A stretch of 38,921 nt of DNA, from the NCBI GenBank assembly GCA_009699125.1, contig WLOT01000003.1:1-38921 (forward strand). The letters run 5' to 3'. This document shows, in pieces, positions 12,374 to 36,436 of this stretch. This DNA comes from Actinomycetota bacterium (GTDB lineage Bacteria; Actinomycetota; Acidimicrobiia; Acidimicrobiales; Acidimicrobilacustridaceae). The translations under genes and the position numbers were made by a program. The first letter of the stretch is position 1. Every line of letters begins with the position of its first letter. The notes below the pieces were generated by a model. The model did not search any database. It worked only from the letters and a program-made list of their open reading frames with translations, and was not told the origin of the DNA.

Positions 12374-13885
12374 GTGGCGATCAGAAAGATCTGTGGAATC
12401 GAAACTGAATACGGCATCGTTCATCGCGGCGTCGACGATCCGAATCCGATTACCGCGTCTTCCATCCTGATCAATTCCTACCTCAGCGATCTCAGTAGAT
12501 CTGGCGGCGCCGTGCATGGAGCCCCTGGAGTTGGATGGGATTTCGAATTCGAGACTCCTGGTGCCGATGCCCGAGGTGTTGCCAATCCCTCTGCGATGCC
12601 CCCCGAAGTTGAGACACACATGGTGAATGCAGTACTCACCAACGGAGCTCGTTACTACGTCGATCACGCTCATCCGGAGCTGTCAACGCCGGAGTGTGGC
12701 GATGCTTTTTCGGTCACCACCTTTGACCGTTCAGCCGAACTGATTTTGGAGCGGTCGATGAGGGCCGCCGACTCTCTTTTGCCCGACGGTCAGTCCATCG
12801 TTGTCTACAAGAACAATTCCGATGGAAAGGGGAACTCGTATGGATGTCACGAGAACTACCTCATCGATCGAGACCTCCCTTTCGGCAGGATCGTGGCCGA
12901 GATCACCCCGCACTTCATCACCCGACAGATTTACTGCGGCGCAGGAAAAGTTGGTAGCGAACTCGGATTCCCATCTGACGTCATTCCGTTCCAGATCAGT
13001 CAGAGGGCAGACTTTTTCGAAGAAGAGGTTGGGCTTGAGACAACCTTGAAGCGACCGATCATTAACACCCGCGATGAGCCCCACGCCGATCCTCAGAAGT
13101 ACCGACGCCTACACGTCATCATCGGCGACGCCAATATGAGTGAGGTTGCGACATTTCTGAAGGTCGGCTCAACAGCCTTGGTCCTCGCGATGATCGAGGA
13201 CGACTGGATCAAGAGAGATCTCCGATTTGCCGCTCCGATTTATGCACTTCGTTCCGTCAGCACCGATCTTTCCCTGACCGTTGCGTTGCCGTTAGAGACG
13301 GGCGGCTCAGTGACAGCGCTGGAATTGCAGCGTTACCTCTTCGAACGAGCTGTCGATTGGGGCGAGCATCACGGCTTCTCTGTGGTCGGTGAGAACGTAG
13401 GGCCCGAAATCCTCCGTCGTTGGGACGAGGCTCTCGCCGGTCTTGAAAACAATCCTGAATCTCTAGCAACAACTGTCGATTGGATCGCGAAGTACCGACT
13501 TATCAACGCCTACCGAGAGCGACACGGTCTCGAATGGGGCGATGCACGGCTTCACGCACTTGATCTGCAATATCACGACCTCCGTCCAGAAAAGTCGCTT
13601 TCTCGGCGGGTAGGTCTCGAAACCATCTGTGGGAACGAGGAGATCCTCAATGGAATCTCTTTACCCCCAGAGGACACTCGTGCCTACTTCCGCGGCGCAT
13701 GTTTGGCGAAGTTTGGCGACGAGATCATTTCCGCGAATTGGGACTCTATGGTCTTCGACATCGGCACTGAACCGCTCCGGAGAGTGGCGATGATGGAACC
13801 GTCGCGAGGAACTGCCGCTCATGTGGCTAGCGTGATTGAATCCAGTCACTCCGCAGCTGAGTTGCTTGCCAAACTCGATGCGTAG
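12374..13885 (+). CDS. dop: Pup deamidase/depupylase
   Basis: GTG start; [79 protein letters not shown]. Confidence 0.96.
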   Translation: MAIRKICGIETEYGIVHRGVDDPNPITASSILINSYLSDLSRSGGAVHGAPGVGWDFEFETPGADARGVANPSAMPPEVETHMVNAVLTNGARYYVDHAHPELSTPECGDAFSVTTFDRSAELILERSMRAADSLLPDGQSIVVYKNNSDGKGNSYGCHENYLIDRDLPFGRIVAEITPHFITRQIYCGAGKVGSELGFPSDVIPFQISQRADFFEEEVGLETTLKRPIINTRDEPHADPQKYRRLHVIIGDANMSEVATFLKVGSTALVLAMIEDDWIKRDLRFAAPIYALRSVSTDLSLTVALPLETGGSVTALELQRYLFERAVDWGEHHGFSVVGENVGPEILRRWDEALAGLENNPESLATTVDWIAKYRLINAYRERHGLEWGDARLHALDLQYHDLRPEKSLSRRVGLETICGNEEILNGISLPPEDTRAYFRGACLAKFGDEIISANWDSMVFDIGTEPLRRVAMMEPSRGTAAHVASVIESSHSAAELLAKLDA

Positions 13886-13939
13886 GGGAGTGGTCTCCGT
13901 TACTACGGAACGTTTCGAACTCGACTTCTAGGAGGTGCC

Positions 13940-14134
13940 ATGGCTGAGCGTGAGCAGATCAAACGAACACCAACTGAGCGTTCCGAAGAGACAGTGGACG
14001 AAGCGCCTCCAAGTTCGGACGCGGGCGAAAAACTCAAGGCAGAACTTGATGATCTCCTTGATGAGATCGATGAAGTCCTCGAGACGAATGCCGAAGATTT
14101 TGTGCGGAGTTTCGTGCAAAAGGGTGGCCAGTAG
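13940..14134 (+). CDS. pup: Prokaryotic ubiquitin-like protein Pup
   Basis: 64 aa ending ...[20 protein letters not shown] (GGQ terminus, requires Dop deamidation), between dop and prcB. Confidence 0.97.
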
Positions 14135-14176
14135 CCGCCACAGGCGGACCGCAGCCAAACCGGTAGCCTCTCAACC

Positions 14177-15019
14177 GTGAGTATGCCGTTCTTCAATCCA
14201 GCCGAGGATCCAGGTCCCGACTTCGCCGCTCTCGCGAAGTTGCAGGGCCTCGTTCCAGTGCCCCCTTCTGCTGCAGTCGATGAGCGGCTTCAGATAACCC
14301 ATGCAACAACGGTCGTGGCCATTCGTTACGCCGACGGTGTTGTGATGGCTGGTGATCGGCGAGCAACGTCCGGACACATCATCAGCCACCGAGCGATCGA
14401 GAAGGTCTTTCCTGCTGATCGCCATTCCGGTGTCGCGATTGCCGGAGCGGCAGGACCAGCGATGGAAATGGTCAAACTTTTCCAGTTGCAGCTCGAGCAT
14501 TACGAAAAGGTTGAAGGCTCGCAGCTCTCGCTCGAGGGCAAGGCGAACCAGCTCGGTCAAATGGTTCGCAACAATCTCCCGGCGGCAATGCAGGGTCTAG
14601 CGGTGGTGCCTATTTTTGCTGGCTTCGACACGCGTCGTTCAATGGGTCGTCTCTTTCAATATGACATCACCGGCGGGCGGTACGAAGAGTCCAATTTCGC
14701 AACAAGCGGTTCAGGCGGATCCCTTGCGGGGTCAGTCGTCAAGATGCGGTTCCATGAGGGACTCACTCGGGACGATGCAGTTGATTTAGCGATTACTGCT
14801 CTGTTCGAAGCTGCCGATGAAGACTCAGCCACGGGTGGCCCAGACATGGTGCGAGGCATCTACCCCGTGATCGCCACGATTACCTCCAATGGCTTTGAGA
14901 GAGTGGCCGACACCGAAATCGCCCAACGATTCGTTGGGCTTCTCGACGCCCTCTCAAGTCGCGATGGCGGCGGCCGCTTGCCTGAAACCTCCACCGAAAC
15001 CGCAGGGGGTGCCCGATGA
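14177..15019 (+). CDS. prcB: 20S proteasome beta subunit
   Basis: Propeptide, then ...ITHA|TTVVAIRYADGVVMAGDRRATSG with catalytic Thr1 (residue 44). Confidence 0.96.
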   Translation: MSMPFFNPAEDPGPDFAALAKLQGLVPVPPSAAVDERLQITHATTVVAIRYADGVVMAGDRRATSGHIISHRAIEKVFPADRHSGVAIAGAAGPAMEMVKLFQLQLEHYEKVEGSQLSLEGKANQLGQMVRNNLPAAMQGLAVVPIFAGFDTRRSMGRLFQYDITGGRYEESNFATSGSGGSLAGSVVKMRFHEGLTRDDAVDLAITALFEAADEDSATGGPDMVRGIYPVIATITSNGFERVADTEIAQRFVGLLDALSSRDGGGRLPETSTETAGGAR

Positions 15020-33421: not shown

Positions 33422-33763
33422 TCAAACAATTGTCGCCATCCTGGGTTCAAGCCTTGCAGCCGCCAATGGCTGTGCGTTCTCCATGAGCCACGCCAATGCC
33501 TCGGAGACGTCCTGAGCCGTTGACGATGCGGCAAGGTCGCGCTGGACATCTTCGACGGCCGCCTGGAGGCAATACAGCAATCCTTGGAGCTCTTCGATGG
33601 CTGATCGGTCGACAATCACATCGTCGTCATCGAGCCCATGGCTCTGGGCCAACTTTCTGGCCATGTACGACTGTTGCTTGCAACCATCTCGGCAGAACGA
33701 CCGAGGTCGACCCGGGCCTTCGCGAGGCTCAACGGGCCGACCGCACCAGCGGCATCTCACCAT
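33422..33763 (-). CDS. Small zinc-finger-like protein (CRWCGRPV...SFCRDGCKQQSY)
   Basis: MVRCRWCGRPVEPREGPGRPRSFCRDGCKQQSYMARKL...; the track ORF extends to 33805, but an internal Met at 33763 (or 33790) is more likely. Confidence 0.7.
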   Translation of the reverse strand: MVRCRWCGRPVEPREGPGRPRSFCRDGCKQQSYMARKLAQSHGLDDDDVIVDRSAIEELQGLLYCLQAAVEDVQRDLAASSTAQDVSEALAWLMENAQPLAAARLEPRMATIV

Positions 33764-33791
33764 CGGATTCTCTCGGCCACTCTCACCCATG

Positions 33792-33819
33792 GGTAATTTC
33801 GTCACGTGACGATATTACC
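33792..33819. promoter_or_regulatory. 28-bp near-perfect palindrome sharing its core with the 30495 site
   Basis: GGTAATTTCGTCACGTGACGATATTACC, one mismatched pair; upstream of the zinc-finger gene. Confidence 0.65.
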
Positions 33820-33823
33820 GGAC

Positions 33824-35002
33824 TCAGCCTGTAAACGAGGGAACGGCAGGTTGTTCGCTTTGGTCGGCGGTTGGTGTCAGATCAGGGAGAACGCGGAATG
33901 GGAATGCCGAGAGGCTCAAGCCCCATACACCCTGATACGACGCCAGCAGATCGGGCACCCCAGGATTCCAGTTGGCGAAGAACGCTCCTGCATCGCTGGC
34001 CGGCGTAGAAAGCTGAAATGTGCCGAGCGCCGTAAGAGGATCTGCTCCACCGACTGACCAAGAGGAAGGACTCTGGCCCATCGAGGTGATCGCTTGGAGA
34101 ACGAGAGCGGTGGAATTGGCATCCACGTCTCCCCCAGCGAACCACGGAAACCCACCGGCAGCGGATCCGCTCGTCGCCTGTGCGTTCTGCAAGAACGTCA
34201 CCGCTGAAGCAACCGGAACCGTCCGACCAAACAATTGCAATGCTTGGACTGCAAACGCAGTGGAGTTGGTGTCAGCGCCTACATAGTTGATGGGGTCAGG
34301 TGCATCGCAGTCCTGAAGCACGTTGCCATTCGGTGCTCGAAAAGCTTGCCAGCCACCGAGCGAACTCTGCGGGTTGGAACCACCGACACATTGCTGATTT
34401 ACCAGCCAATCGATAGCAGCCGCTGGAGGGGTCGCCCCTACTGCTTGCAGCGCGATCACCATCAACGACTGATCCTGAATCGACGACCACGGTTCTTGGT
34501 ACCCATAAAAACTTGGGACAACTTGTCCGTACATCGCTTGGGCTCGAGCAACGAGATCCACCACTGGAGTCCCAAAGGCCCTCGGGTTTCCCCGTGTGGT
34601 GTTGACGAGCAGGATCAATGCTGCGAGTCGCTCAGGGAGGTCAGCGCCAGGTGGTGCAACGGTGCCACCGCTTCCGTCATTCGTGACCCATTCGTCGATA
34701 CTGCTGCTGAGCGAGAGATACGACATCGCACGATTCAGAGCATCACGCTGCTCCCCCGTCGCAGCAAGACCCTGAGCGACATACATCGTTTGCGTAACGA
34801 CCGACTGTGTGGCGCCGCTGATGTTCACTTCGCCCGTAGGACCAACCTGCGCTGCAAGCCAGTTCGAAGTGAGCGTCGACGCTGGTGTTGTAATTGCTGA
34901 CGATTGTGACTGTGAGGTTGCGAGTATGGCGACTGCGACGACGAACACAGCAACCGTTCCGCGACGGATGCGAGTCGAAACTCGAGTTGATTGGGTGCGC
35001 AT
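33824..35002 (-). CDS. Secreted prenyltransferase/squalene-oxidase-repeat (alpha/alpha-toroid) protein, possible transcobalamin-like corrinoid binder
   Basis: Start trimmed to MRTQSTRVSTRIRRGTVAVFVVAVAILATSQSQSSA (signal peptide); repeats such as VGADTNSTAFAVQALQLFG and GDVDANSTALVLQAITSMG; preceded by a cobalamin riboswitch. Confidence 0.8.
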   Translation of the reverse strand: MRTQSTRVSTRIRRGTVAVFVVAVAILATSQSQSSAITTPASTLTSNWLAAQVGPTGEVNISGATQSVVTQTMYVAQGLAATGEQRDALNRAMSYLSLSSSIDEWVTNDGSGGTVAPPGADLPERLAALILLVNTTRGNPRAFGTPVVDLVARAQAMYGQVVPSFYGYQEPWSSIQDQSLMVIALQAVGATPPAAAIDWLVNQQCVGGSNPQSSLGGWQAFRAPNGNVLQDCDAPDPINYVGADTNSTAFAVQALQLFGRTVPVASAVTFLQNAQATSGSAAGGFPWFAGGDVDANSTALVLQAITSMGQSPSSWSVGGADPLTALGTFQLSTPASDAGAFFANWNPGVPDLLASYQGVWGLSLSAFPFRVLPDLTPTADQSEQPAVPSFTG

Positions 35003-35084
35003 GATGTCCTTGTGTTGGACCGAGGTGGCGACGATGCCGGCCCTCGTCGAACACCAAATGGCGCTGGATTTGGGGCTCGACACC

Positions 35085-35275
35085 GCATTCCACGACGGTG
35101 AGTTGAGCTTCGCTCTCGCGTTCGGTGATCCGACTCGAATGCCAACCTCGGGCTTTCGCCGAAGGACCAACACTCACACGGTTGCGGGACAGCGCCGGAT
35201 TCGCACCGGACTTCCCCTCACACGAGAACAACTTGTTGCGTTCTCAGACAAACAGCAATCGGCACTCAGGTCAAG
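35085..35275 (-). ncRNA. Cobalamin riboswitch (approximate bounds)
   Basis: Minus strand reads GAGGGGAAGTCCGGTGCGAATCCGGCGCTGTCCCGCAACCGTGTGAG...GGCGAAAGCCCGAGGTTGGCATTCGAGTCGGATCACCG, matching the conserved cobalamin core GGGAA..GGTG.AA.TCC..C.G.CCCGC.AC.GT and a divergent B12-box-like 3' part. Confidence 0.88.
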
Positions 35276-36161: not shown

Positions 36162-36188
36162 GTTCAGAACCACAACTGACGCTGATCA

Positions 36189-36303
36189 CCGCTTGCGGGA
36201 GAGTCCAGCCACTCTCCTAACGATCACCACGATCGAACGGACATTGACTGGCGCCGAAGGAGCAACCCCCCGGGAAACTCTCAGGCACATGTACCGCTTG
36301 CGT
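36189..36303 (+). ncRNA. Glycine riboswitch, aptamer 1
   Basis: GCGGGAGAGTCCAG...TGGCGCCGAAGGAGCAACCCCCCGGGAAACTCTCAGGCACATGTACCGC. Confidence 0.9.
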
Positions 36304-36304
36304 A

Positions 36305-36436
36305 GGCAACTCTGGAGAGCAGTCGCCACATAAGTGGGTGACTCACCGACGGGGAAAGTCGACAACGAATGACGTGCCACTTTCGGCACAACAATTCGTC
36401 GGACACGAAACTCTCAGGTACCACAACAGAGCGGGG
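36305..36436 (+). ncRNA. Glycine riboswitch, aptamer 2
   Basis: CAACTCTGGAGAGCAGTCGCC...TCACCGACGGGGAAAGTCG...GACACGAAACTCTCAGGTACCACAACAGAGCGGGG; just upstream of gcvP. Confidence 0.9.

Follow-up and report, generated by a model that had tools for sequence, protein, structure and literature searches.

Riboswitch and toroid gene

The window, by which we mean the whole stretch of 38,921 nucleotides that was analysed, carries on its minus strand a gene for a 392-residue protein predicted to be an alpha/alpha toroid, preceded by a putative AdoCbl-type cobalamin riboswitch (Table 1). That a cobalamin riboswitch lies here had been claimed in an earlier note made from the sequence alone, and the claim held up when the region was searched with Infernal: in a 551-base scan, cmscan aligned the aptamer to RF01482 over the full length of the model (positions 1-149 of 149) with 48.6 bits and an E-value of 6.3e-8, or 5.0e-8 when the search was genome-wide. 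The score falls 1.4 bits short of the curated gathering score of 50 bits, and a default Rfam scan therefore misses the element; two homologous leaders exceed this cut-off (52.6 bits in L021, 52.2 bits in L030). Against RF00174 the leader reached 30.7 bits, with a cut-off of 31.5. Going by the covariance model, we regard the aptamer as a probable AdoCbl riboswitch. What the default scan does return from the window is only a tandem glycine riboswitch (36186-36436, plus strand; 65 and 44 bits), which stands upstream of a glycine dehydrogenase (gcvP-like) frame and which many family members also have next to the toroid gene.

Table 1. Features at the toroid locus (window coordinates)
Feature	Position	Strand	Basis
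AdoCbl-type cobalamin riboswitch aptamer (RF01482), putative	35073..35242	-	Rfam covariance search
Aptamer-to-start-codon leader	35003..35072	-	sequence; Shine-Dalgarno AAGGAC 35011-35006
Protein of 392 aa, predicted alpha/alpha toroid related to SCO2321; proposed alpha-half of a transcobalamin-like B12 binder	33824..35002 (ATG at 35002)	-	translation, NCBIfam, family profile
Signal-peptide-like N-terminal segment, residues about 1-36	34895..35002	-	judged by eye
Repeat motif D-T-N-S-T-A, at the catalytic DxDD position of squalene-hopene cyclase	34256..34273	-	profile alignment to 1gsz
Second repeat motif D-A-N-S-T-A	34106..34123	-	translation/alignment
C-terminal tag P-S-F-T-G-stop	33824..33841	-	translation, alignment

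Within the 70 nucleotides that separate the aptamer from the ATG, a short GTCC-N7-GGAC hairpin lies over the Shine-Dalgarno sequence and is kept in three close relatives (L001, L002 and L004). This is a weak indication that would suit translational control of the toroid gene, which would presumably be expressed when AdoCbl is low. We discarded, as a mechanism, an anti-Shine-Dalgarno helix that would join an aptamer arm to the leader: its pairing is about 0.8 in the window, but the helix is not conserved in the same three loci.

The N-terminus of the encoded protein (P0001) and of its aligned relatives, judged by eye, combines an Arg-rich N-region, a hydrophobic core and small residues before position 36, a signal-peptide-like start from which we infer that the protein is exported. 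Both of the D-x-N-S-T-A repeats that the earlier note had pointed out, DTNSTAFAVQAL and DANSTALVLQAI, are found in the translation. NCBIfam SCO2321_fam (NF053823) matches residues 159-341 (model positions 30-196 of 405; E-value 5.2e-28) with 98.1 bits against an equivalog cut-off of 300 bits; by this profile the protein is a relative of SCO2321_fam and not a member. Single-sequence searches gave no match in Pfam, and thus no DUF4430 domain within this chain, and no credible match in the PDB. A profile of 36 homologs, in turn, matched squalene-hopene cyclases in the PDB (E-value 8e-26) as well as prenyltransferase beta subunits and the C3d/C4d (alpha-2-macroglobulin) thioester domains, all of them alpha/alpha toroids, which agrees with the fold class proposed for the protein at the outset. 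The AlphaFold model obtained with a 4-sequence alignment is too poor (mean pLDDT 34), and the toroid assignment therefore rests on sequence profiles. No relatives were found on viral contigs.

As squalene-hopene cyclases are the best PDB profile matches, and as Pfam SQHop_cyclase_C matches 13 of the 36 homologs, one could take the protein for a secreted enzyme of the terpene cyclase/prenyltransferase superfamily that is B12-regulated by happenstance. However, the DxDD motif of terpene cyclases, which the earlier note had singled out as a telling feature, was looked for and is absent from all 36 homologs, with DTNS aligned to its position, so that terpene cyclase chemistry is not expected. The signal-peptide-like start, a cobalamin riboswitch that is always present and the clustering with ECF transporter genes in other families (see below) likewise speak against an enzyme, an explanation that we consider extremely improbable.

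The comparison drew on 61 related genomes; the counts below refer to 37 genomes of the window's family and to 24 genomes of other families (the outgroup). Direct comparison detected the toroid protein in 33 of the 61, and a profile search added six more carriers in other families of the order. Wherever the upstream DNA is intact in genomes of the same family, a cobalamin riboswitch directly precedes the toroid homolog (25 of 25; G001, G002, G007, G012 and G017, in which a contig end cuts this region, were left out), a recurrence that excludes chance. Toroid gene and riboswitch are each present twice in G033, and a toroid homolog of Embleya (Streptomycetaceae) also stands behind a cobalamin riboswitch (L190, 6598-6668). 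Neither an ECF gene nor a SCO2322-like one lies within 7 kb of the Embleya toroid, which counts against the reading favoured below.

Several minor observations concern the toroid genes and their surroundings. Tandem toroid genes with a cobalamin riboswitch between them occur in G041 (L121, 11377-14449); one homolog (L002/L009; G019:C13:69595-70761) contains a single in-frame TGA, by sequencing error or as a decaying copy; and one aligned homolog bears an S-layer homology domain. Directly downstream of the window's toroid gene lies a frame for a 127-residue protein (33422-33805, minus strand) with a CxxC-type zinc-ribbon-like start and no Pfam match, which is syntenic in the family and, at 48-94% identity, more conserved than the toroid. 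It was rejected as a candidate toroid partner, as in some family members (L020) it stands about 1 kb from the toroid gene and as it matches no Pfam family.

An ECF operon behind a second riboswitch

The only other cobalamin riboswitch detected in the genome (contig C148, 7671-7833; 31.7 bits) stands at the head of an operon whose first gene encodes a SCO2322-related protein; genes for EcfT, for a double ATPase and for a membrane protein that occupies the S position follow. EcfT scores above the cut-off of Pfam CbiQ (PF02361), the ATPase matches TIGR04521 with an E-value of 2.5e-91 and has two ABC domains in one chain, and the 279-residue S-position protein gives a weak S-component match (E-value 0.0045), so that the parts of an ECF transporter (EcfT, a pair of ATPase domains, an S component) stand together in one operon. 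The earlier remark that no transporter adjoins the toroid gene is true for the window; the transporter genes lie on another contig. Among the relatives, all 13 tested leaders of the ECF operon contain a riboswitch, some of them weak. About 1 kb beyond the operon lies a gene for a helix-turn-helix protein with a B12-binding domain and a CarH-like layout (L178 1471-2481, minus strand; G000:C148 about 13411-14259).

The first protein of the operon matches SCO2322_fam (NF040672) with an E-value of 8.5e-16 and 59 bits against a cut-off of 85. Its N-terminus is signal-peptide-like and is followed by one small domain, from which a linker rich in Pro, Ser and Thr leads to a membrane helix and a tail rich in Arg. 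This C-terminal helix and tail are present in nearly all of 37 SCO2322-like members. When the small domain was compared with DUF4430 by hhalign, the two aligned over 94 columns with an E-value of 1.1e-6, while 20 column-shuffled controls and one reversed control gave 0.14-0.94. On the strength of this profile comparison, the domain appears to be a DUF4430 beta-grasp domain, and hence of the fold class of the second domain of transcobalamin; DUF4430 has been described as the C-terminal domain of transcobalamins (PMC4350170). The relation is found by profile-profile comparison alone, a direct search with Pfam DUF4430 (PF14478) giving no match to SCO2322-like proteins. In the PDB, a profile search with the beta-grasp family returned low-complexity antibody-chain matches only, a sequence search with a DUF4430 domain returned nothing, and neither the toroid nor the beta-grasp half had a sequence match to transcobalamin or intrinsic factor. 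There are also many DUF4430 genes in other parts of the phylum that adjoin EcfT homologs, and in G438 (L195) a DUF4430 domain and a toroid that the profile of the window's family matches occur in one chain.

Genomic linkage and the need for B12

The genes for the toroid, the SCO2322-like protein, EcfT and EcfS lie together in eight other families (L117, L118, L119, L120, L121, L123, L124 and L128), in clusters that bear cobalamin riboswitches. Genomes of the window's family, as well as G058, have the toroid gene apart from the ECF operon, each behind a riboswitch of its own. This split is not an assembly artefact, since in G027, an assembly of 7 contigs, the two loci lie about 860 kb apart on one contig. 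Across the outgroup, the toroid and SCO2322-like genes co-occur in nine of nine cases, and their presence or absence agrees in all 24 genomes (Fisher P = 8e-7).

The strictness of this co-occurrence, together with the adjacency of the two genes in the clusters, bears on a further explanation, namely that the toroid, while regulated by B12, acts as a surface or structural protein (an adhesin, or a wall or polysaccharide binder) and never contacts the corrinoid, capture being left to the beta-grasp protein. The versatility of the alpha/alpha-toroid fold, the wall-anchoring parts (SLH, DUF4214 or LPxTG-like) of outgroup homologs and, in the window's family, the location of the toroid gene away from the ECF operon could all be read in this way. 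Nevertheless, besides the co-occurrence, the existence of a DUF4430-toroid fusion and the fact that transcobalamin sandwiches B12 between precisely these two folds (PMC1796856) argue for a part in binding, and we think it unlikely that the toroid is a bystander of this sort.

A riboswitch-linked BtuC-like gene is present in nine genomes, none of which has a toroid or a SCO2322-like gene. The exclusion has a P value of 1.4e-6 overall and of 0.0095 over 24 families represented by one genome each, the latter being the fairer figure because the relatedness of the genomes weakens the former. The genome to which the window belongs encodes both MetH and methylmalonyl-CoA mutase, and CbiC, an enzyme of corrin-ring synthesis, is absent from it and from 35 of the 37 family genomes. 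Because this genome is only 81% complete, the absence is taken from the relatives as well, and it points to a probable B12 auxotrophy.

These observations also allow us to weigh the view that the riboswitch-linked ECF system and the toroid import cobalt ions instead of corrinoids, as CbiQ/CbiO-type proteins of other bacteria do. EcfT indeed falls in the Pfam CbiQ "Cobalt transport protein" family, the ATPase matches cbiO, and cobalt systems are known targets of cobalamin riboswitches (PMC2667541). Yet a cell that lacks CbiC would have little use for cobalt in B12 synthesis, the toroid/beta-grasp/ECF set alternates with riboswitch-linked BtuC, a corrinoid importer, and the toroid and beta-grasp folds are of the corrinoid type and not of the metal type. 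We therefore hold cobalt import to be very unlikely.

A proposed two-protein corrinoid receptor

The reading that we favour, and that we consider probable, is that the toroid is the extracellular alpha-half of a two-protein, transcobalamin-like corrinoid receptor that feeds an ECF importer. When AdoCbl is scarce, each of the two riboswitches would permit expression of its locus, be it the toroid gene or the ECF operon, and so link two loci that are physically apart in the window's family. The toroid would be exported and kept at or near the cell surface, perhaps via its PxFTG C-terminus. There it would bind the corrinoid jointly with the SCO2322-like beta-grasp protein, which is encoded in the same operon as the importer and would be anchored in the membrane by its C-terminal helix, much as transcobalamin holds B12 between its toroid and beta-grasp domains (PMC1796856). 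The S component of EcfT-EcfA-EcfS would then receive the corrinoid from the beta-grasp protein, and the imported corrinoid would serve MetH and methylmalonyl-CoA mutase in a cell seemingly unable to build the corrin ring. The earlier note had envisaged extracellular capture of corrinoids by a transcobalamin-like toroid. Capture is favoured by the context, that is, by the second riboswitch on the beta-grasp/ECF operon, the clustering elsewhere, the complementarity with BtuC and the retention of B12 enzymes despite the loss of corrin synthesis. However, the toroid would make up the alpha-half only, the beta-grasp half being a separate, membrane-anchored protein.

The idea of a bacterial toroid/beta-grasp B12 scavenger is not new. 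Burroughs et al. described in 2007 bacterial SLBB (DUF4430) proteins, often fused to a toroid and encoded near CbiO/CbiQ genes in bacteria that do not produce B12, and predicted them to be B12 scavengers; as holders of the transcobalamin-like clade they named mainly low-GC Gram-positives, along with planctomycetes and euryarchaea (PMC1796856). The system discussed here shares with theirs the toroid and beta-grasp domains, here presumably secreted, the CbiQ/CbiO-type transporter genes, the apparent loss of B12 synthesis and the predicted scavenging. In contrast, its two domains are separate proteins encoded at two unlinked loci, each with a cobalamin riboswitch of its own, its host is an actinobacterium, a group not named there among the transcobalamin-like holders, and its toroid ends in PxFTG. 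The split, two-riboswitch actinobacterial form is thus a variant of the scavengers predicted in 2007.

Animal transcobalamin, intrinsic factor and haptocorrin have the same two fold classes, act outside the cell and presumably share the manner of holding the corrinoid at a joint site, but they are single chains, whereas the halves are separate here and direct sequence similarity is not detectable. BtuFCD importers and the surface binders BtuG and BtuH of Bacteroides also capture or import corrinoids with proteins unrelated to the toroid/beta-grasp set; in this order, the BtuC genes are linked to cobalamin riboswitches and mutually exclusive with that set. As for the SCO2321 and SCO2322 families, which the toroid (5e-28) and the beta-grasp protein (9e-16) match below the curated cut-offs, NCBIfam lists SCO2321 as a membrane protein, while the window toroid has no C-terminal membrane helix. 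A literature search that covered few subscription journals turned up no paper on the function of either family.

If the proposed model is correct, actinobacteria that depend on B12 and apparently have to obtain it from their neighbours would possess a counterpart of the human B12 carriers, and one that can be put to the test. The SCO2321/SCO2322 gene families, so far uncharacterised, would be tied to corrinoid uptake, and the 2007 proposal on a bacterial origin of transcobalamin would gain support from a new lineage.

A recurrent C-terminal motif

The toroids of the window's family end in P-x-[FY]-T-G in 25 of 26 aligned sequences, the remaining one ending in PRYAG. A search of the genome to which the window belongs for PxFTG followed by a stop codon gave seven matches in the DNA against none for the reversed control. 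Each of the seven lies at the C-terminus of a long frame; six of these frames have, as judged by eye, a signal-peptide-like start, and the folds encountered are very diverse (TolB-like and YVTN propellers, among others). The pattern occurs 504 times in the 37 family genomes against 11 times for the reversed control, and is nearly absent from the 24 other families (26 against 12 times). At 29 further loci (proteins ending in PxFTG are found at L133-L168), almost every match closes a long frame; most of these frames have a signal-peptide-like start, and Thr/Pro/Ser-rich tails are frequent. PxFTG thus apparently represents a recurrent, undescribed tag; we found no paper on it, and no C-terminal NCBIfam model was reported on the four PxFTG proteins scanned.

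Substrates of LPxTG sortases continue from their motif into a membrane helix and a basic tail, whereas the family of the window stops right after PxFTG, without either; ending as it does in PSFTG-stop, the window toroid does not qualify as an LPxTG substrate. Some outgroup toroids, instead, end in LPVTG or SAVTG followed by a membrane helix and a basic tail. Sortases are encoded in nearly all genomes of both the family and the outgroup, and therefore do not by themselves explain the tag. It seems to us an even bet that P-x-[FY]-T-G is a new sorting tag of this actinobacterial family, which the putatively B12-capturing toroid shares with many exported proteins that are otherwise unrelated, and that the tag arose from LPxTG-type anchors, or took their place, while dispensing with the membrane helix. 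Were this so, the toroid would be a transcobalamin half shown on the cell surface by a further machinery, and a sorting signal of this kind would constitute a novel means by which Gram-positive bacteria handle surface proteins.

The seventh PxFTG protein of the genome has a ubiquitin domain, its relative in G006 matching Pfam ubiquitin with an E-value of 8e-30. Genes that combine ubiquitin, an unfamiliar domain and a PxFTG end, often in tandem, occur in several genomes of the genus (L139/L181 157-972, minus strand; L183 50-1575; L184; L185 6023-7646). Their products apparently have no signal peptide, and in both G000 (C203) and G009 (C160) the distance to a sortase gene is about 7.5 kb.
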